This document shows positions 33,153-43,814 of a stretch of 43,814 bases of DNA, one piece after another. Within the stretch, counting starts at the first letter, position 1. Every line of letters starts with the position of its first letter. The DNA comes from Candidatus Omnitrophota bacterium (GTDB lineage Bacteria > Ratteibacteria > UBA8468 > B48-G9 > DTJG01). A model generated the notes under the pieces. That model was not told the DNA's origin. It did no database searches and worked only from the letters and a program-made list of their open reading frames with translations. Made by a program: the position numbers and the translations under genes. The stretch lies in contig JAMWCC010000012.1 in the NCBI GenBank assembly GCA_023818375.1, positions 1-43,814 of the forward strand, given 5' to 3'.

Positions 33153-34236
33153 TTAATACCGGTTTTTTTCCATCCACCTTGCTATTGCATAAAATCTTTC
33201 AAGCTCGACCCTTATTCCGTCAGCAAATACTCCTAATATGAAATTTGCTCTTTTCAATCTTTCCGTGATAACTGAATTAAGAAGATCAGGAATATCCTGA
33301 ATTTTACTGAGAAGGAATATTGATGGGTCAAGAGCACCTATAATAATGGTATCTTCTCCAAGAATATCAAGAGCAAGTTCCCAGTGTGGATCACCTGTTG
33401 GTGGTGGGGTCAGCGCATGAATTCCAGCACATCCTGTCTTTTATAAGATGGAGCAGGTTTTTCACATGTCCACACATGTGAATTATTGCGGTTTTACCAG
33501 CATTTTTGATTATTTTCACAAATTCCTGTTGATGGGGCATGTTATATTGTTTGTAGACTTCCGGGCTAATGTAGTAAGTACTTGTATTTTCAACAAGTAT
33601 TACGTAGTCGCAGGGACAGTTTGCCAGTATTCTGAATGCATCCTTTTCCTTTTTATGAATCGTATCTATCAATTCTTCCATTTCATCAGGATAGTCGTTC
33701 AAAAGATAATAAAAATTTTCTATTCCCATATCAATCTCAAGTAATCTTGGAATTGTTGATGGTCCCCAGAATCTGGTTACGATACCATTATCTCCCACAA
33801 GGCTTTCAAGTTTATCAAAGGTTTCTTTATCATCCAATTCCAGGAAACTTGCCTGTTCCCACATTTTTGTATAAATTTTCACCGCATCAACTGAATCTAT
33901 CATATATTTCACAGGATGTCCGCCTTTTCCATAGACGCCAATAAGATTCCCTTTTGGCGTACTAAATCTTCTGATAGTTTTTCCATTTTCTTGATAGGTT
34001 TGCTCCAAAATATCTTTACTCCATTTTAGTTGTGGACTTCTGAATGTAAAGGGTGTGTTCCAGCCATTCAAAAGAAAAATATCGCAGCCTATGGCTTTAT
34101 AAAAATCAATCCCAAAATTTTCTCTAAGATGTTTTGGAAAAAAGTCAATGCTATTATTATCAACAAGGGCTGTCCAAGAAAGACAGTCATGGGGTTCTCT
34201 ATTCATTATTGCTTTAATTCTCTCTTTCGGTGTCAT
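33153..34236 (-). pseudogene. uroporphyrinogen decarboxylase family protein (corrinoid methyltransferase-like) interrupted by one frameshift
   Basis: ORF 33391-34236 (MTPKERIKAIMNREPHD...HMCGHVKNLLHLIKDRM) ends early. The next frame continues as (C)AGIHALTPPPTGDPHWELALDILGEDTIIIGALDPSIFLLSKIQDIPDLLNSVITERLKRANFILGVFADGIRVELERFYAIARWMEKNRY* to 33153. Confidence 0.8.
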
Positions 34237-34335
34237 ATCTAATTCAAGTATAACATACCTTATGTCCTGGGGCATTGTTTTTATCATTAAAAGTGAAGTA
34301 AACTATAATGAGAGTACTAAAAGCAAACATATTGG

Positions 34336-35166: not shown

Positions 35167-35194
35167 TTGACAAATTAAACATGAGTGATAAGAT
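35167..35194 (+). promoter_or_regulatory. promoter upstream of LacI-family regulator 1
   Basis: TTGACA (35167-35172) - N16 - TAAGAT (35189-35194). Confidence 0.55.
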
Positions 35195-35196
35195 AG

Positions 35197-35220
35197 AAAG
35201 CGATTGATAGAAATCGCTTT
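35197..35220 (+). promoter_or_regulatory. inverted repeat at predicted TSS of LacI regulator 1 (candidate operator or hairpin)
   Basis: AAAGCGATT-gataga-AATCGCTTT, perfect 9-bp arms, 3 nt before the ATG. Confidence 0.55.
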
Positions 35221-35223
35221 AAA

Positions 35224-36273
35224 ATGCAGAAAATAACACTAAAAACAATTGCAGAAAAGGTCAAAGTTAGCCCATCCACTGTTTCTCGGGTTATAAGAAA
35301 TGATAGAACCTGCTACATAAGTAAATCAAAGAAACAGGCAATTTTAGAAGCGGTAAGAAAACTAAATTATGCTCCAAATTTTGCAGCAAGGAATCTTGCT
35401 CTAGGAAAAAGTTCGAACGTGGCTTTTGTGTTGTGCAGATTATGTCATATTGGTGAATCCGGACCCTTTACTTTTAAAATTCTGGAAAATATTCAAGAAA
35501 CTTTGAGAAGGGAAGGATATAGCCTTTCTGTGATAACAATACCTCACGATAATCTGAACGGGTTTAGAGAGATATGCTTATCAAGAAAATTATATGATGG
35601 AATTATTTTTGGTTCAGGGGTTATCTCTGAAGAAACAGCTGATATAATAAAAAATTCTGAAATTCCCAAGATTGTGGTTGATGATAATTCTCCCTTTCTT
35701 GAAAATATTCCAAGAGTGATAACAGATAAGGAAGAAGGGATTACAAGCGCAATCTCCTATTTAAAAAAAATGGGCCATAGAAAGATTGCTTTCTACGGAC
35801 ACAGTACAAGTATGCTGGAACTTTTTAGGAAAGCCATGATTAATAACGAACTATCATTTGATAAAAAACTTGATTTCAGGTTTTCATCAGGTAACATCTA
35901 TGAATTAATGTTTGATGCTTATGTTAATGCCACTTTAGTTTTAGAAAATCTTTCAAAGTTTACAGGGGTGTTTTGTGCTAATGATTTTGTTGCCCTTGGT
36001 TTAATCCAAAGGTTAACAGAGAAAAAAATAAAAGTTGGGTCCGAGATTTCTATTATTGGATTTGACAATATTGAAGAACTACTTAACGTACCTGAAGATG
36101 AAAGATTTCTAACTACTATACACAAACCGCGAGAAAAAATGGGAGAAGAGACCGCAGAGCTGCTTCTTAAAATGATGAAAAACGGAAGAATGAGAAATAG
36201 GGCGAAGAAATTACCTTGCAGGCTCATTATAAGAAAATCAACAGGATATTGCAAAGGAGGTGATGAAAAATGA
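35224..36273 (+). CDS. LacI family transcriptional regulator
   Basis: [55 protein letters not shown]; periplasmic-binding-like core ([24 protein letters not shown]). Confidence 0.93.
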
Positions 36274-36902
36274 AAAAGGGATTTACTCTTATTGAACTAC
36301 TTGTTGTTATAGCGATTATCGCAATTTTAGCCGGACTTTTGCTTCCAGCATTATCCAGAGCCAGAGCGATGGCTAGACAGGTATCATGCATTAACAACCT
36401 TAAACAGCTGGGTCTGGCGTTTCATCTTTATTTTACCGATTATAATGAGGATATACCGCTGGCAGTGGGTCATGGGGATGCAACACATGGTCACAAGTCT
36501 TGGTATGTACGTATTGCACCATATATTAGGCCTGGTTTTAACGCGACAGCAAGTGCAATTACTAACCTAAAGGTATTTACCTGCCCGTCTTATCGCACAG
36601 CAGAGGGTATTAGTGCATGGTATCCGAGATTTGCTGAAAACTACTACTGGGGAAATCCGGACCAACCTTGGCGAAAGTTATCCAGTGTAAAAAAACCATC
36701 TCAGACAATGCTCTTGATAGAGAAAAGTGATATTACAACCCCTTTTCGTGTATATACCGGTGAGATTTCAGGAATAACAAAGGCAAAGCAAAATAGGCAT
36801 CTGACTGGGGTGACGATTCTCTTTTTTGACGGCAGGGCTGACTTCTGGACAGACTCTATTCCAGCGAGTGATTCAGATGTATTCTGGTCTAAACCTTACT
36901 GA
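36270..36902 (+). CDS. type II secretion-like prepilin (DUF1559/H-X9-DG type) 1
   Basis: [54 protein letters not shown]-terminal [12 protein letters not shown] (H-X9-DG). Confidence 0.9.
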
Positions 36903-36904
36903 TT

Positions 36905-37579
36905 TTGATGCAGAATTGCTGGAACATGATAAAAGAAATAGAAATAGGCAAATCGAGATCGATTGGATTCACCTTAATTGAGCTTCTGGTGGTAATTGCT
37001 ATCATTGCTATTTTGTCGGCCTTATTGCTGCCGGTTTTATCGAAGGCGAGGGAAACAGCGAGAACTGCAGTGTGCATAAGCAATTTGAAGCAAATAGGAA
37101 TTGCGTTCACGCTGTATTTCGATGATAACGATGGCTATATTCCCTATGCAAGTCAATCAGATGATTTAGATGGAAGAGTCTGGTTTAGAGCCATCGGTAA
37201 GTACATAAGCGGTAAGTATATTCCCAGCGGGACCAAGCTTCACCCGGTATTTCAATGTCCGTCTTACCGTGTTCCACCTGTTACCTTTTATAGACCAGCC
37301 TGGGGAATGAATTATTACTGGGGAAATATTAATAGGCCAATGACCAAAATCGAAAAGTTAAAAACCCCTTCACAGACATTACTTTTGATAGAAAGCAATG
37401 GTCCCATCATAGATGGGACCTATTATGTATCTACCGGCAATATTTCATATATCGAACATGCAAGACAGGTAAGGCATAAAGTAGGAGTGACAACCTTATT
37501 TTTTGATACTTCTGCTAAGGTATGGGTATGGTCGATACCAGCAAGTGATAGTGATCCTTTTTGGGCTAAGCCCTATTGA
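36905..37579 (+). CDS. type II secretion-like prepilin (DUF1559/H-X9-DG type) 2
   Basis: [62 protein letters not shown]-terminal [12 protein letters not shown] variant; paralog of the preceding ORF. Confidence 0.9.
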
Positions 37580-37599
37580 ATGATTAACTGGGAGGGATC

Positions 37600-38139
37600 A
37601 TGATGAAATTATGTTGGTTTTATGGAGGTTTGTTAATAATTTTTGTTCTTTCATGTGTTTCTGCAGTTGTTAATGTAAAAAATGGTGGTTTTGAAAGTGG
37701 GAGTAATCAACCTGACTTTTGGTTTACTTATAAAAGTCCTGGTACAGATGCTGTTTTCGTCTGGGACAATAAAGTTTTTCACAATGGTAAATATTCGGTC
37801 TACATAAAAAATAATGGTCCAAAGAATGCAGCTTGGCAAACTTCTATTCCAGTGAAGGGTGGAGCAACTTACCTGATTAAGGTTTGGGCAAAAGTTAAAA
37901 ATGGCAAAGGAGTTACGAGAATTGGTTTAAGATGTGAAGATGCCGTTGGTAACTGGACAGGGCAGGTTATTGAGGGTACTGGAATATCCGGTGATAAAGA
38001 TTGGACTGAGATTTTTTTGCATGCAAGAGTTCCTGAGAAAGCTGCAAGGGCAAGGATCTTCCTCGTGAATTCTGCTGGCAGTGGCGATGAAATATGGTTT
38101 GATGATGTGACCGTCGAAGAAACTGAAGAAAAAAAATGA
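37600..38139 (+). CDS. secreted CBM-like (jelly-roll, CBM4/9/22-like) protein
   Basis: Signal peptide; NGGFESGSNQPDFWF...YSVYIKNNGPKNAAWQTSIPVKGGATYLIKVWAKVKNGKG...IFLVNSAGSGDEIWFDDVTVEE. Confidence 0.75.
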   Translation: MMKLCWFYGGLLIIFVLSCVSAVVNVKNGGFESGSNQPDFWFTYKSPGTDAVFVWDNKVFHNGKYSVYIKNNGPKNAAWQTSIPVKGGATYLIKVWAKVKNGKGVTRIGLRCEDAVGNWTGQVIEGTGISGDKDWTEIFLHARVPEKAARARIFLVNSAGSGDEIWFDDVTVEETEEKK

Positions 38140-38906
38140 CAGTATTATTAACCTTGGTACTGGCACTTTTATTTTTCCTTCCAGAAGGAAATTGCCTTAC
38201 GATTTTTGAAAACATCAACAATAGTTTTGAGGAAAGCGAAACAGCACCATTAAACTGGTCAAATTATCTTACCCCAGGAACAAAAGGAGAATTTGGGTGG
38301 GATAAAACTGTATTTCATGGTGGACAAGCTTCTATCTATCTGAAAAATGAAGGTCCTAATAATGCAGCCTGGTTTACCGAAGTTTTTGTGGTTGGAGGTT
38401 TGGAATATTGTTTAAAGGTTTGGGCAAAAGTTAAAAATGGGAAAGGGAAAACCCAGATTGCTGCTCGGGGTTTAAACGAAAAAGGAGAATGGATCCATGG
38501 ATGGTTTCCTGAGAGTCAAACTCAGGATATTTTTGTTACCGGCACAATTGAATGGAAACAATTGTGTTTCAGGATTAGAGTACCGCCAGAAGCAACTAAA
38601 ATAAGACTGTTCTTAATGAATTCGGGTGGTTCCGGTGATGAAGTCTGGTTTGATGATTTGGAAATAGAAGATTATTTTTGGGAAACAATTACTGATTTAT
38701 TACCATCAATTCAAAAATCATTGAGGACAAATTGGAACAATCTGAAATACAAACAAGAATGGGAATCTTTAGCTAAAAATGTGGAAAATACGATAACAGC
38801 ATTAAACAATATCCAGGAAAAAATGAAACAAAAACTATTACCAGTTGCAGAAAAAAAATTATCTGGCAACAGATTCATGAAGCTTACAACTTACAACAGA
38901 GGATAG
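38136..38906 (+). CDS. secreted CBM-like protein with C-terminal helical extension; apparent 5' half of a gene continuing in the -1 frame
   Basis: Signal peptide; paralogous to 37600-38139 (FHGGQASIYLKNEGPNNAAWFTEVFVVGGLEYCLKVWAKVKNGKG...MNSGGSGDEVWFDDLEIED). Reading frame breaks at A8 (38851-38858). Confidence 0.75.
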   Translation: MTVLLTLVLALLFFLPEGNCLTIFENINNSFEESETAPLNWSNYLTPGTKGEFGWDKTVFHGGQASIYLKNEGPNNAAWFTEVFVVGGLEYCLKVWAKVKNGKGKTQIAARGLNEKGEWIHGWFPESQTQDIFVTGTIEWKQLCFRIRVPPEATKIRLFLMNSGGSGDEVWFDDLEIEDYFWETITDLLPSIQKSLRTNWNNLKYKQEWESLAKNVENTITALNNIQEKMKQKLLPVAEKKLSGNRFMKLTTYNRG

Positions 38907-38929
38907 ATCGGGAGAGTTTTGTAGTTAAA

Positions 38930-40507
38930 TTGAATAAGAAATATCAGGATTTTGGTTATTTTTGGGCGGATAGTATGGAAAAAGTTTTCATTTATGACCT
39001 GCCTTTTAACTTTTATAAGAATGTTGGATACTTGGAAATTTTCCCAGGAGAAAAGGAATCTATCCAATTAGTACTTGTACCATTTCAGGATATATACAAT
39101 GTTACACTCGTCATTAAAAGTAATCCTGGGAAATTTGGTAAGATTCCTGAGAATAGTCTGATGTGGAAGGTTGTTGGTTATGTAAAAATTGATAATCCAG
39201 GTATAAACTTTCATAGACCAGAACCTTTTCCTTATTCAGGTTGGTGGCCTGATTTGTTACTTGAGAAAAAATACTTTTCTATTAAAAGCAGAGCATTTCA
39301 ACCTGTTTGGATTGAGGTAAGAGCACCATATAATCAGAAGCCAGGAAGATATCCTATAAATATTGAGATTTATTTTTCTCAAAAACCAGATGGAGCTTTG
39401 AAGAAAAAAACAGTCAGTTTAACAGTAGAAGTTTTGCACGGAAAACTTTCTGAAAAATGGTATATGAAAAAAATGTTTAGTTTTTCTGCTAAAATAGCAA
39501 AGGGACCATACTTTGATGCCAAAAATTCTGTTTATTACGGCGAAAATTGGGAAAATATTGCAAACAAATTTTATGACTTATTGATAGATTACAGGATAGG
39601 TATTGGTTCTCTTTACGAATCGATAGATTACTATCCACCAGAGCTTATCCTTCATGCAGTAGAAAAGGGACAGAATTTTATCCTTGCAGCAAGTGTGCCT
39701 GCTGCAAGGTTTGGTGCTGATGGTAAGCCAACGCTGAAATCTGTTGGTTTTGAAATATTGAAGAATCTGGAAAACAAAATTGCACCATGGCTTAAGGAAA
39801 AGGGTTTATTGAGTATCTCTTACTTATATGGTTTTGATGAACAGTGGGCTGAATTTTTTGAATATTGTAGGGAAATTTTTACACAAGTAAAGAAGAAAAC
39901 AGGATTGAAAACAATGACCACGATACATGATGATACTTATGGAACAGGTTCAATATTGAAAGATGCAGTTGATGCATTTGTTTCACCGATTTCAACTTAT
40001 CTTAGGACATTGGAAACAGTAAGAAAAGCTAAAAATGAGGGACGGGAAGTCTGGTGGTACAGTGCCTATGATTTGAATATAGAAACCAGTACAGTTAGTT
40101 TTCGTGCTCTGCCTTTGCGTGGACTTGCAGTAAATTCTGATGGCTATTTGATATGGTGTATGAACAGATGGGTTGGAAATAAGGATTTCATTTCTGATAA
40201 TATTTTGTCGGAATGGAATCCAAAACTGGATGGTAAAGCAACTACCTCTTCTGGTATGTTAATATATCCTGGAAAAGATGGACCAATCAGTTCTATAAGA
40301 TTAGAGAATCTCAGAGATGGGATAGAGGACTATGATATCATATTTCAAACTATGTTGGCAATGAAAAAAAAGAACCAGACCACCAAAGAAGCGATAGAGA
40401 GAATCTCAGATTTATTGGATTTAAAAGGCGATGTATCTTGCTACACACCCGATCATATCAGAAGTATGAGGAAAAAAATATCAGAATTACACATGGAGAA
40501 AAGGTAA
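38930..40507 (+). CDS. DUF4091/GH123-like glycoside hydrolase catalytic region; apparent 3' half of the 38136 gene
   Basis: YGFDEQWAEFFEYCREIF, DAFVSPISTYL, EGREVWWYSAYD, GMLIYPGKDGPISSIRLENLRDGIEDYDII (C-terminal DUF4091/GH123 signature). Confidence 0.78.
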   Translation: MNKKYQDFGYFWADSMEKVFIYDLPFNFYKNVGYLEIFPGEKESIQLVLVPFQDIYNVTLVIKSNPGKFGKIPENSLMWKVVGYVKIDNPGINFHRPEPFPYSGWWPDLLLEKKYFSIKSRAFQPVWIEVRAPYNQKPGRYPINIEIYFSQKPDGALKKKTVSLTVEVLHGKLSEKWYMKKMFSFSAKIAKGPYFDAKNSVYYGENWENIANKFYDLLIDYRIGIGSLYESIDYYPPELILHAVEKGQNFILAASVPAARFGADGKPTLKSVGFEILKNLENKIAPWLKEKGLLSISYLYGFDEQWAEFFEYCREIFTQVKKKTGLKTMTTIHDDTYGTGSILKDAVDAFVSPISTYLRTLETVRKAKNEGREVWWYSAYDLNIETSTVSFRALPLRGLAVNSDGYLIWCMNRWVGNKDFISDNILSEWNPKLDGKATTSSGMLIYPGKDGPISSIRLENLRDGIEDYDIIFQTMLAMKKKNQTTKEAIERISDLLDLKGDVSCYTPDHIRSMRKKISELHMEKR

Positions 40508-40508
40508 A

Positions 40509-41387
40509 ATGAAAAAAAGATTTCTTTATTCGGTTAATACCAATGGTCTACCAAAACAGATGTCCATAAGTGAAAAGGTGAAATTGATATCAAAAACAGG
40601 TTTTAATGGCGTCGAATGGGGGTTGCCTTCAAAGATAGATGAAGTTAAAAAGTGTATTAAGGAAATGATGAGTACTTCTGAAGAAGAGGGATTGAATGTT
40701 ATTTCCTTTATCAATGCCGGACCTTTTTGGAAAAAGGATCATTTAGAAAGAATTAGTGAAATAATTGCCCCAACAAAAGTTAGACAGATAAGAGTTTCAC
40801 CCCCCTGGGTTGCTTTTGACTACCAAGAGTCATTACATCAAAAAGAGTCAGCTAATGAATTGTTTTTAAGAATGAGAGAAAAAATTTATCAAGCTGTTGA
40901 AGTTGGGAAAAAATATAATATGAGATATTTATTGGAAACTCACATGGGAAGCATATGTGCCTGTCCTTTTGTTGCGCGTTCACTCATTGATGGATTGAAT
41001 GAAAACCATGTTGGAATAATTTATGACCCTGCCAATGGGATTGTAGAAGGAGGATATAGGCCAAGGGCATCGGTTGAATTTTTAGGAAATTATCTTGGTT
41101 ATATTCATGCCAAGAATGTAAAATGGTTTGTTTCAGGGCAAACGCAGGATAGACCTTTAAGAACAAGATGGAGCTGGCAGGTTTGTTCTTTATCTGAAGG
41201 TATTGTTGATTATGTTGAAGTCTTTTTCGCCTTAAAGGTAACAGGGTGGTCTGGCTGGATATCTGTTGAAGAATTCTTCAGCGAAAAACCTGAAGAGCAA
41301 CTTAAGGCAGGACTAAATTTTTTGAAAGATTGTGAAAGTGTAGCGCCAGAAAATACTAGTGAACCTTTCCTTTCTTTTAATGATTAG
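40509..41387 (+). CDS. sugar phosphate isomerase/epimerase (xylose isomerase-like TIM barrel)
   Basis: TGFNGVEWGLPSKIDEVKKCIKEM, YLLETHMGSICACP, GIIYDPANGIVEGG, YIHAKNVKWF, WISVEEFFSEKPEEQLKAGLNFL. Confidence 0.88.
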   Translation: MKKRFLYSVNTNGLPKQMSISEKVKLISKTGFNGVEWGLPSKIDEVKKCIKEMMSTSEEEGLNVISFINAGPFWKKDHLERISEIIAPTKVRQIRVSPPWVAFDYQESLHQKESANELFLRMREKIYQAVEVGKKYNMRYLLETHMGSICACPFVARSLIDGLNENHVGIIYDPANGIVEGGYRPRASVEFLGNYLGYIHAKNVKWFVSGQTQDRPLRTRWSWQVCSLSEGIVDYVEVFFALKVTGWSGWISVEEFFSEKPEEQLKAGLNFLKDCESVAPENTSEPFLSFND

Positions 41388-41597
41388 ATGGATGATCATA
41401 AACTATCTACAAAAATTGCACTTGGTCTTTTGCCTGACTGGGTGAATGAGATTCTACTAAAAGAAAAAAACAATCTAATAGAAGAATATTGCATGTATCC
41501 TGACTATTACTATGATCCGCATAAATATTCTCGTGTCCAGCCTTTTTTATTTTTTTTAAAGGTGTACCATTTCATTATCTGCCAAGGCAGCAAATAA
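41388..41597 (+). CDS. N-terminal fragment of PLC/P1-nuclease-like protein, frame broken at T8
   Basis: MDDHKLSTKIALGLLPDWVNEILLKEKNNLIEEYCMYPDYYYDPHKYSRVQPFLFF, then frame change. The continuation KGVPFHYLPRQQIIYDNWQVVYSGNKF... is in the frame of the 41720 ORF. Confidence 0.55.
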   Translation: MDDHKLSTKIALGLLPDWVNEILLKEKNNLIEEYCMYPDYYYDPHKYSRVQPFLFFLKVYHFIICQGSK

Positions 41598-41719
41598 TAT
41601 ATGATAACTGGCAGGTTGTATATTCAGGGAACAAATTTTGCATAAAAAGAATTTACCAACCCAAAAATGAATTCTATTATTTTTGCAATCGTGCGTTCAG
41701 GTTTTATTTCAAAAGGATA

Positions 41720-42682
41720 ATGAAAAATTTGATAGAAAACAGAATCTCAGAAGCTGCAAAATTTACAGGATCCTTTATCCATACCTTACAGGATTTTTGC
41801 AGTAATCTTCACTGCCTAGAAAATCCTGAAGGAAGCGACATTTTTGTTCTTGACCGTTTGATAAAACCTCATGGTCACGATAAATACATGACTCCGAGTA
41901 TGATTTTGGCAAAGGAATATCCCTTTTTTTTGAACATAAGGAAATATAGACCATTTTTACTTGGAACAACACAACCTGAGGCGATTTTCCATCTTTATTC
42001 CAGACTTGTTTCAAAAATAACCAGAATCAGATTTTATCTTATACCCCTTGTTGAGGGAGTATACCGAAATAAAAAGAAGCAGATTCAAAAAAATCAGTCT
42101 TTTATAATACTTGAAGGAGCAAAACTTGTTGCTGATGTTCTTTATACAATTTTTTCTCTGACCTTCAATCGTTTCAAAAAAAACCAGGTTGATGTACTAA
42201 AAAAAATTCATCTGGAAGAAATATCACCTATAGAGAAACCATATATACTATCATATCCATACAGATTTACGCCCATTGTCAATAACTTTTGCCTCGACAT
42301 GGACAGAAGATTTGTTCCCCTACAATTAAAATTTCCAGATGGAACAGTTAAAACCTTTAGACATGGTTTTGGAACTGGATGTCATATTGAATACGATCTC
42401 GTCTATGATATACCAAAAAATGTTTTCAAAAATTTTCAGGGTAGTGTGGGTCTTCACCCTATTTTGGGAAAAAATGGGAAAATTAAGGTGGAAATTAGCC
42501 TGAACAACAAGGTTTTTTATCATAACGAGTTTGGAGAGAGAAAATTAGCAGACATTTTTGATGTACCTATACTTTGCGGTGGAAAATTAAAGCTCACTGT
42601 CAGGGACAGGACTGGTTGTTGGGGAAGTCCTGATAATAATGTTGTATGGGCAGAGCCAATATTGATTAAGAATGTGGTATAA
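41720..42682 (+). CDS. C-terminal portion of the same protein: helical region plus NPCBM-like carbohydrate-binding domain
   Basis: FTGSFIHTLQDFCSNLH (PLC/P1-like H/D pattern); C-terminal FRHGFGTGCHIEYDLVYDIPKNVFKNFQGSVGLHP...KVEISLNNKVFYHN...LKLTVRDRTGCWGSPDNNVVWAEPIL resembles NPCBM. The same frame is open upstream to the T8 tract. Confidence 0.6.
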   Translation: MKNLIENRISEAAKFTGSFIHTLQDFCSNLHCLENPEGSDIFVLDRLIKPHGHDKYMTPSMILAKEYPFFLNIRKYRPFLLGTTQPEAIFHLYSRLVSKITRIRFYLIPLVEGVYRNKKKQIQKNQSFIILEGAKLVADVLYTIFSLTFNRFKKNQVDVLKKIHLEEISPIEKPYILSYPYRFTPIVNNFCLDMDRRFVPLQLKFPDGTVKTFRHGFGTGCHIEYDLVYDIPKNVFKNFQGSVGLHPILGKNGKIKVEISLNNKVFYHNEFGERKLADIFDVPILCGGKLKLTVRDRTGCWGSPDNNVVWAEPILIKNVV

Positions 42683-42714
42683 AAAAGGTTTGCCTATAGT
42701 AGAGGAATGTTGAT

Positions 42715-43059
42715 ATGAAAATAACAACAAATTTTCCTGGTGGTAATGGAAAGGATTTCAAATTTCTCGGAAAAGACCACATAAGATTTACACACAGAGA
42801 CACGAAACGGAAAATACGCTCTGTGGTTCGATTTTTTGTTGAAGAAGTGGATTGCAAGTAGTTAATATGTGGGATAAACAGTGGAAAGTATATTCCTGGA
42901 TGGCCTTTTCGATCAAACGTAAAACCTGTTTTCAGGCATAGAAATACTCTCTGGAAAAGAGTACCTTTTTCATATGCAGCTACCATGTTTACTGCCAGAA
43001 AATACCAGTTGGTCCTGGACAGTGGCGCAAATTGGAAAAAGCAATTTTTCGCGGTTTAA
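42715..43059 (+). pseudogene. gene remnant interrupted by an in-frame TAG (42859-42861)
   Basis: MKITTNFPGGNGKDFKFLGKDHIRFTHRDTKRKIRSVVRFFVEEVDCK*LICGINSGKYIPGWPFRSNVKPVFRHRNTLWKRVPFSYAATMFTARKYQLVLDSGANWKKQFFAV*, one frame with a single amber codon. Confidence 0.35.
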
Positions 43060-43152
43060 ATAGTGTCCTTAATAATTACAGATATGCTTAACTTCTGACA
43101 AGGCGATTTAAACCTCTTTGCAGCATCAAAAAAATATTTTATTTAAAATAAC

Positions 43153-43180
43153 TTGACAAATTTTTAACTCGAGTTAAAAT
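43153..43180 (+). promoter_or_regulatory. promoter upstream of LacI regulator 2
   Basis: TTGACA (43153-43158) - N16 - TAAAAT (43175-43180). Confidence 0.6.
43162..43179 (+). promoter_or_regulatory. palindromic operator overlapping the promoter spacer and -10
   Basis: TTTTAACTCGAGTTAAAA, 18-bp perfect palindrome with CpG centre as in LacI-family operators. Confidence 0.6.
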
Positions 43181-43207
43181 TTAAGTGGAAAATAAAAAGG
43201 TGGTCGT

Positions 43208-43327
43208 ATGAAAATCCATAAAACTCTTTTAAAATCAAAAGGAAATGCTCTATGGCTTGTTTTTATCTGTAATTTAAATCGATTTAATAAAGGCACAGAA
43301 TCAATCTTTTCAGGAAGGAAGATATGA
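43208..43327 (+). CDS. possible 39-aa leader ORF coupled to LacI regulator 2
   Basis: SD AGGTGG, ATG at 43208; MKIHKTLLKSKGNALWLVFICNLNRFNKGTESIFSGRKI*. Stop overlaps the regulator start (ATGA). Confidence 0.35.
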   Translation: MKIHKTLLKSKGNALWLVFICNLNRFNKGTESIFSGRKI

Positions 43328-43814
43328 CACAGAAAGACATAGCAAAGATGCTGGGAATTTCACGTTCCACTGTTTCACTTGCACTTAAAGGTTATCCTAA
43401 GATTAGTAAGGAAACAAGAGAAAAGGTTGTAAGACTGGCTAAACTGACCAATTACAGACCCAACTTTATTGCTCAGAATTTATTAAAAGGGAAGACATAT
43501 ACAATCGGACTCATGCAGGCATTTCCTTTTAGTCCTTTTTTTATAGAGCTAACAGGCAAGATCCATCAACTACTAAGAAAACACAATTATCTGTGTATAT
43601 CTGTTGAGATTGGTTCAAGTATGGAGTTTAAAGAATCTTTGGAGATTTTCATGGCAAGGAGGGTGGACGCTCTGATATGTCTTATTTCTTTTCTTGATAT
43701 GGATGGAATGTTGCAGATAAAGAATGAGAAAATTCCATCTGTTTTCTATAATGAAAATCCAGACCTTCCAGCTGACATTGTTGCTGTTGATACATACCAA
43801 GGTGGTTGTGTTGC
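43324..43814 (+). CDS. LacI family transcriptional regulator, truncated by window end
   Basis: MTQKDIAKMLGISRSTVSLALKGYPKISKETREKVVRLAKLTNYRPNFIAQNLLKGKTYTIGLMQAFPFSPFF; SD GGAAGGAAG. Confidence 0.92.
   Translation, partial: MTQKDIAKMLGISRSTVSLALKGYPKISKETREKVVRLAKLTNYRPNFIAQNLLKGKTYTIGLMQAFPFSPFFIELTGKIHQLLRKHNYLCISVEIGSSMEFKESLEIFMARRVDALICLISFLDMDGMLQIKNEKIPSVFYNENPDLPADIVAVDTYQGGCV

Follow-up and report, generated by a model that had tools for sequence, protein, structure and literature searches.

A regulator, DUF1559 prepilins and secreted glycan-related proteins in one operon: a gene order that recurs across genomes of a candidate bacterial lineage and its relatives

Why should prepilins, the precursors of pilus-type proteins, lie between a LacI-family regulator and a set of glycan-binding and glycan-cleaving proteins? 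The question is raised by a 43,814-nucleotide stretch of a Candidatus Omnitrophota genome (contig JAMWCC010000012.1; here the window), which makes up all or nearly all of one contig (C57) of a 2.07 Mb assembly in 129 contigs (G000), and in which two DUF1559 prepilins follow such a regulator and precede the glycan-related genes of the same operon. We show here that the order regulator, prepilin, secreted glycan-related protein recurs far above chance in this genome and its relatives. The explanation we favour, with confidence a little short of even, is that such a group is a sugar-inducible cassette, in which the operon's own pseudopilin would act as adaptor between the neighbouring enzymes and a shared type II secretion/type IV pilus machine.

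Adjacency was scored genome-wide from the positions of the LacI-type sensor domain (PF13377) and the prepilin signal (PF07963), a regulator counting as directly before a prepilin when the prepilin starts within the following 300 nt of that strand. In G000 a prepilin lies directly downstream of five of seven LacI-fold sensors, and of one more at a contig edge. The same arrangement was found in relatives for 2/2 regulators in G006, 15/19 in G014, 5/14 in G011 and 5/10 in G015, and for 8/22 in G049, a genome related at domain level only. Over the six genomes, all of them fragmented metagenome-assembled genomes (MAGs) with genes called by a simple caller, this amounts to 40 of 74, where chance would give 0.2-0.5% per regulator (the chance calculation for G006 used 20 of its 35 prepilin matches, which leaves its 2/2 result unaffected). 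The reverse order, with the prepilin immediately ahead of the regulator, occurs in none of the six. The regulators carry a LacI- or GntR-type DNA-binding domain on a LacI-type sensor, and among 37 regulator-prepilin pairs whose sequence was read, 14 consist of genes that overlap or lie no more than 10 nt apart.

The gene after the prepilin is likewise far from random. Secreted status was assigned by a simple, crude hydrophobicity rule for signal peptides, and the enrichment tests were confined to genome-wide positions and to loci picked for holding a prepilin, not for their neighbours; the regulator-prepilin loci read at sequence level had been partly chosen for adjacency. The next co-directional gene is of secreted type in 8/19 cases in G000, against a background of 35/397 (p=2e-4), and in 23/30 cases in the relatives, against 15/182 (p=5e-15). 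Among the regulator-prepilin pairs with a visible downstream gene, a secreted-type protein comes next in 29 of 33. When 28 of these cargo proteins were scanned singly against Pfam, 24 were found to carry glycan-related domains, a count that includes the LamG fold, which is lectin-like, as well as matches falling slightly short of the curated cut-off. The domains include GH123, GH42 (trimerisation), GH9, NAGLU, DUF4838, CBM4/9, CBM9 and LamG, together with pectate-lyase-like and heparinase II/III-like ones, and a control set of 55 secreted proteins from the same loci gave mainly housekeeping families (proteases, SurA, TPR). An earlier note on this DNA had proposed that its prepilins organise regulator-prepilin-secreted glycan protein cassettes, and had named chance-level neighbourhood as the outcome that would speak against this; the neighbourhood check came out far above chance. 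At one locus of G049 (L160:4832-9704) two adjacent open reading frames (ORFs), of 313 and 1288 amino acids, share identical first 45 residues, through either duplication in tandem or an artefact of the assembly.

The operon of the window itself was delineated by ORF calling and a Pfam profile search of the proteins. Its parts, with carbohydrate-binding module abbreviated CBM, glycoside hydrolase GH and helix-turn-helix HTH, are as follows.

35167..35220, + strand: candidate promoter TTGACA-16-TAAGAT with an inverted repeat, just before the LacI ATG
35224..36273, + strand: LacI-family regulator, first gene of the operon (LacI HTH 8e-14, Peripla_BP_3 sensor 4e-24)
36270..36902, + strand: DUF1559 prepilin 1 (N_methyl and DUF1559, H-X9-DG, Cys40/Cys105), overlapping the LacI gene by 4 nt
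36905..37579, + strand: DUF1559 prepilin 2 (N_methyl and DUF1559, H-X9-DT), 52% identical to prepilin 1
37600..38139, + strand: predicted secreted CBM_4_9-type glycan-binding protein (Pfam CBM_4_9 2e-11)
38136..40507, + strand: frameshifted CBM-linker-GH123 gene of ~790 amino acids with a signal peptide-like start (ORFs 38136-38906 and 38930-40507)
40509..41387, + strand: sugar isomerase/epimerase-like TIM barrel (AP_endonuc_2 4e-22)
41388..42682, + strand: NPCBM-domain protein (Pfam 1e-6), frameshifted at a T8 run at 41550

Once the frameshifts are corrected the genes are contiguous or overlapping, forming a tight operon over 35224-42682. The product of its first gene has both the LacI HTH and the periplasmic-binding-type sensor by which the LacI family is recognised, and a AAAGCGATTgatagAAATCGCTTT-like inverted repeat at 35197-35220 is the candidate operator; promoter-like sites in the region number 38 against 31.8 in shuffles, barely above, so that such a site alone is weak evidence. 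The likely start of prepilin 2 is ATG 36926, or TTG 36905 upstream of it. Most of the order given in the earlier note stood, namely LacI, two prepilins, CBM, GH123, isomerase and NPCBM, as did its 4-nt overlap between regulator and prepilin. Its two separate CBM genes ahead of a separate hydrolase did not, since the second CBM ORF (38136-38906, a weak Pfam match) and the GH123 ORF (38930-40507; catalytic domain 4e-15 and N-terminal domain 1e-9, both above cut-off) form a single gene. Followed backwards, the GH123 frame stays open as far as 38777, the two frames cross at an A8 run (38851-38858), and the frameshift there is why the gene appears as two; its ortholog in G011 is a single open frame of 811 amino acids, with which the alignment runs continuously over CBM, linker and GH123 and thus across the junction. 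We therefore count one CBM protein and one CBM-GH123 protein. The former is probably a duplicate, judged from sequence, of the CBM domain in the latter, given that both CBM regions match the same N-terminal region of the G011 protein L159_9 at 41%.

The last gene was treated in the same way. From 41525 onwards the NPCBM frame is open; it is entered at the T8 run by an ORF that begins at ATG 41388, directly 3' of the isomerase stop, and the operon is thereby tighter than the near-contiguity described before. The label "PLC-like" formerly attached to this protein was dropped, as the Pfam scan found NPCBM only. Both frameshifts (38851-38858 and 41550-41557) thus fall at 8-nt A/T runs, of which the window has about 45. 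They are probably assembly or sequencing errors, with real slippage or gene decay as the less probable alternative. The isomerase-like protein shows no signal peptide, and a PDB search gave no sequence match to it.

The second LacI gene, earlier placed inside the cluster, is probably a separate unit and was excluded from the operon because it lies ~640 nt downstream and has its own promoter-like site and palindrome; its LacI HTH is recognised, and the gene (43324-) is truncated by the contig end.

43153..43812, + strand: promoter-like TTGACA-16-TAAAAT over the palindrome tttaactcgagttaaa, then the second LacI gene

Upstream of the operon, at 33391-34287 on the minus strand, an MtaA/CmuA-like methyltransferase ORF (a weak match, probably incomplete) adjoins a HAD phosphatase.

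At the level of orthologs, regulator, prepilin and cargo are inherited together. The cassette of the window has an ortholog in another family, on contig C44 of G011, in which prepilin 1 is 62% identical over its full length, CBM-GH123 41-48% and the regulator sensor 32%, the G011 regulator carrying a GntR-type HTH. Conservation there does not extend to the isomerase, the NPCBM gene or the remaining flanking genes. Another pair of cassettes from different families (L063/L047) shares regulator (61%), prepilin (58%) and cargo (64%), and L018/L168 is a further cassette common to different families. Across families, pairs whose cargo is related resemble each other more closely in the globular domain of the prepilin (permutation p=5e-4), and at the ortholog level the prepilin subtype keeps company with its cargo and regulator. 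In G011 (L159:12339-14574) the cassette regulator stands head-to-head with a second prepilin that is followed by two secreted proteins, an arrangement in which a single regulator may control a divergent pair of cassettes.

The spread is wider still. A scan with the prepilin alignment led to named contigs, and the regulator-prepilin-secreted order is present in Lentisphaeria or Victivallaceae (L105, L134 and L143, and L145 with one intervening gene) as well as in a chromosome, complete, that bears the label Planctomycetes bacterium syqfu (L119). The nearest named relative is a 'Candidatus Omnitrophota' MAG contig, JAMWCZ010000009 (PilT-like 80%, PilB-like 78%).

Such recurrence bears on the idea that operon position implies no functional coupling, the prepilins being selfish or mobile leader genes, or markers of insertion hot-spots for secreted-protein genes. 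Their very high paralogue number would suit such elements, standalone prepilins are common, and the near-identical N-terminal DNA could favour recombination. However, gene order and strand are fixed, the genes overlap translationally, the regulator class is biased, the order returns in a relative at domain level, and whole cassettes are kept across families while their surroundings change; we consider this explanation very improbable. The repeated N-terminal DNA probably also breaks the G000 assembly and hides further cassettes: in contigs C38, C79, C105 and C44 only a few bases separate a prepilin N-terminus from the contig end (as at C38:3-74, C105:17715-17783 of 17786 and C79:30058-30129 of 30146).

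What, then, might the prepilin do? Both prepilins of the window have N_methyl and DUF1559 above the Pfam cut-offs and so belong to the DUF1559 prepilin family, in which a nearly invariant N-terminus is followed by a variable globular domain. The C-terminal H-X9-DG motif, previously ascribed to both, varies across the prepilin set and is present in prepilin 1, prepilin 2 having H-X9-DT. Against the Verru_Chthon cassette models (TIGR02596/TIGR02599) the scores were ~20 bits, below the curated cut-offs of 70 and 256.5. In the PDB the prepilin profile matches type IV pilins (PilA) and GspG, via the N-terminus only. Genes for a machine are present in G000, with T2SSF platform genes on contigs C18, C41, C84 and C27 and three secretin matches on two contigs (C95 and C84), and they are far outnumbered by the 46 prepilins. 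Conserved tandem DUF1559 prepilins of a GVNVLYVSG type, which have neither regulator nor secreted cargo, occur in several genomes (L006, L060, L061, L055) and may be the machine's major pilins.

The pilin-like N-terminus is also where a second alternative meets difficulty, according to which the prepilin would be an envelope or solute-handling protein that aids import or sensing of the released sugar in place of the absent transporter, its N-terminus serving only as membrane anchor and sorting signal. The older Pfam name of the domain, SBP_bac_10, denotes solute binding; Rhodopirellula work treats DUF1559 proteins as solute-binding, with stress-linked expression (PMC2754498); a part of the Tuwongella study reports that they fractionate with membranes (PMC8567305); and the cluster has no transporter. 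Yet the N-terminus is what links the profile to type IV pilins and GspG, and the globular part appears from the model to be short, unlike a two-lobed binding protein. We regard this alternative as improbable.

The main rival is an inducible glycan adhesin, in which the pilus of the cassette would bind the glycan through the variable globular domain while the enzymes act free of it, the pilin not handling cargo. Cellulose-binding type IV pilins have a precedent in rumen bacteria, and a globular domain that varies while the N-terminus stays nearly constant, beside cargo that is separately secretable, would suit such an adhesin. Nevertheless, a Foldseek comparison of a model of prepilin 1 (mean pLDDT 84, pTM 0.81) with the PDB gave no match to a solved fold, whether CBM, lectin or another (best E 6.7), and the Pfam scan found no CBM domain in the prepilins. 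This rival is unlikely in our estimation, though it is to be taken seriously.

The adaptor explanation would work as follows. The LacI-fold regulator would control its own operon through the operator at its start, and sugar freed from the target glycan would reach the regulator and de-repress the operon. The cargo, in the window the CBM proteins and the GH123 of beta-N-acetylgalactosaminidase type, would cross the inner membrane by Sec. After processing by prepilin peptidase, the matching DUF1559 pseudopilin would join a shared type II secretion/type IV pilus machine, whose genes lie in other parts of the genome, and there it may help to export the cargo or keep it at the cell surface.

Several observations weigh against this explanation. 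The starts of the cargo proteins resemble ordinary signal peptides, and these proteins could be exported with no help from a prepilin. The sensor is not always of LacI fold, for AraC regulators directly precede prepilins in two of four cases in G014. A regulator is missing beside many DUF1559 prepilins, and a secreted neighbour beside several. Within a single genome, moreover, a Mantel test of prepilin similarity against cargo similarity was negative, although within-genome paralogs may be too diverged for such a comparison; specific matching of pilin and cargo is thus suggested but not proved. Part of the match seen between orthologs could also be plain co-inheritance of linked genes. The two AraC cases lie at L054 (C8:131577-132025) and C3:2186-2638, and a third AraC gene appears to be divergent from a prepilin (L051); the architecture is the same, with a different class of regulator.

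As to the glycan, our best guess from sequence is a substrate containing beta-linked N-acetylgalactosamine (GalNAc-beta). It rests on closeness to beta-N-acetylgalactosaminidases of the NgaDssm type (8k2j, the best PDB sequence match of the GH123 protein, 2e-19) and on retention of the DE motif, whose role in GH123 catalysis has been described (PMC11087588) and which we read by eye in YGFDEQW and again in the G011 ortholog. A search of the genome contigs with the GH123 protein found no relative.

Few paralogue families in Planctomycetes and related groups are as large as the DUF1559 prepilins, which number 74 in Rhodopirellula baltica (PMC2754498) and 68, including two essential ones, in Planctopirus limnophila (PMC10632474); those papers label the domain as unknown or solute-binding. 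Our literature search, which left many subscription papers outside its scope, found no description of the regulator link, the glycan cargo or the cassette as a unit. The fixed order suggests a purpose for many of these prepilins, predicts pilin-enzyme pairs, offers a gene-neighbourhood rule for finding glycan-degrading systems where SusCD-type polysaccharide utilisation loci (PULs) are absent, and makes the role of DUF1559 testable in cultivated carriers. More broadly, the expanded prepilins could be interchangeable, sugar-inducible plug-in subunits, each programming one shared machine for its adjacent enzymes, in a modular form of glycan foraging, distinct from SusCD-based PULs, across the Planctomycetes-Verrucomicrobia-Chlamydiae (PVC) group and several candidate phyla; we offer this generalisation as a possibility that we doubt more than we believe.

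Among known systems, PULs and carbohydrate-active enzyme (CAZyme) gene clusters resemble the operon in joining a local regulator to secreted glycan-binding and -cleaving proteins. In contrast to PULs, no SusC/D, ATP-binding cassette (ABC) or phosphotransferase system (PTS) family was matched by Pfam among the cluster proteins, as the earlier note had stated, and a DUF1559 pseudopilin occupies the place beside the regulator. The operon thus lacks the SusC/SusD pair of a Bacteroidetes-type PUL; it is a CAZyme gene cluster in the loose sense of a regulator with CAZyme/CBM genes in one operon, but not in the strict sense, which asks for a transporter in the cluster. With the GH123/DUF4091 enzyme NgaDssm the predicted enzyme of the window shares both GH123 domains and the DE motif, although it is distant (~25-30% identity in matched stretches) and has an N-terminal CBM. 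Like type II secretion pseudopilins and type IV pilins, the cassette pilins have a PilA- and GspG-like N-terminus in a genome with platform and secretin genes; unlike them, they lie away from the machine genes, beside cargo and regulator, and have a globular domain without a solved relative. A further likeness is to the expanded DUF1559 (SBP_bac_10) family of Planctomycetes, with the same N_methyl and DUF1559 architecture and many paralogues. The Tuwongella passage of Seeger et al. 2021 (PMC8567305) reports that genes encoding the two domains together often have signal-peptide genes as neighbours, and it mentions neither a regulator nor a glycan cargo nor a cassette; the order regulator, prepilin, glycan cargo goes beyond it, being shown here statistically and also outside Planctomycetes.

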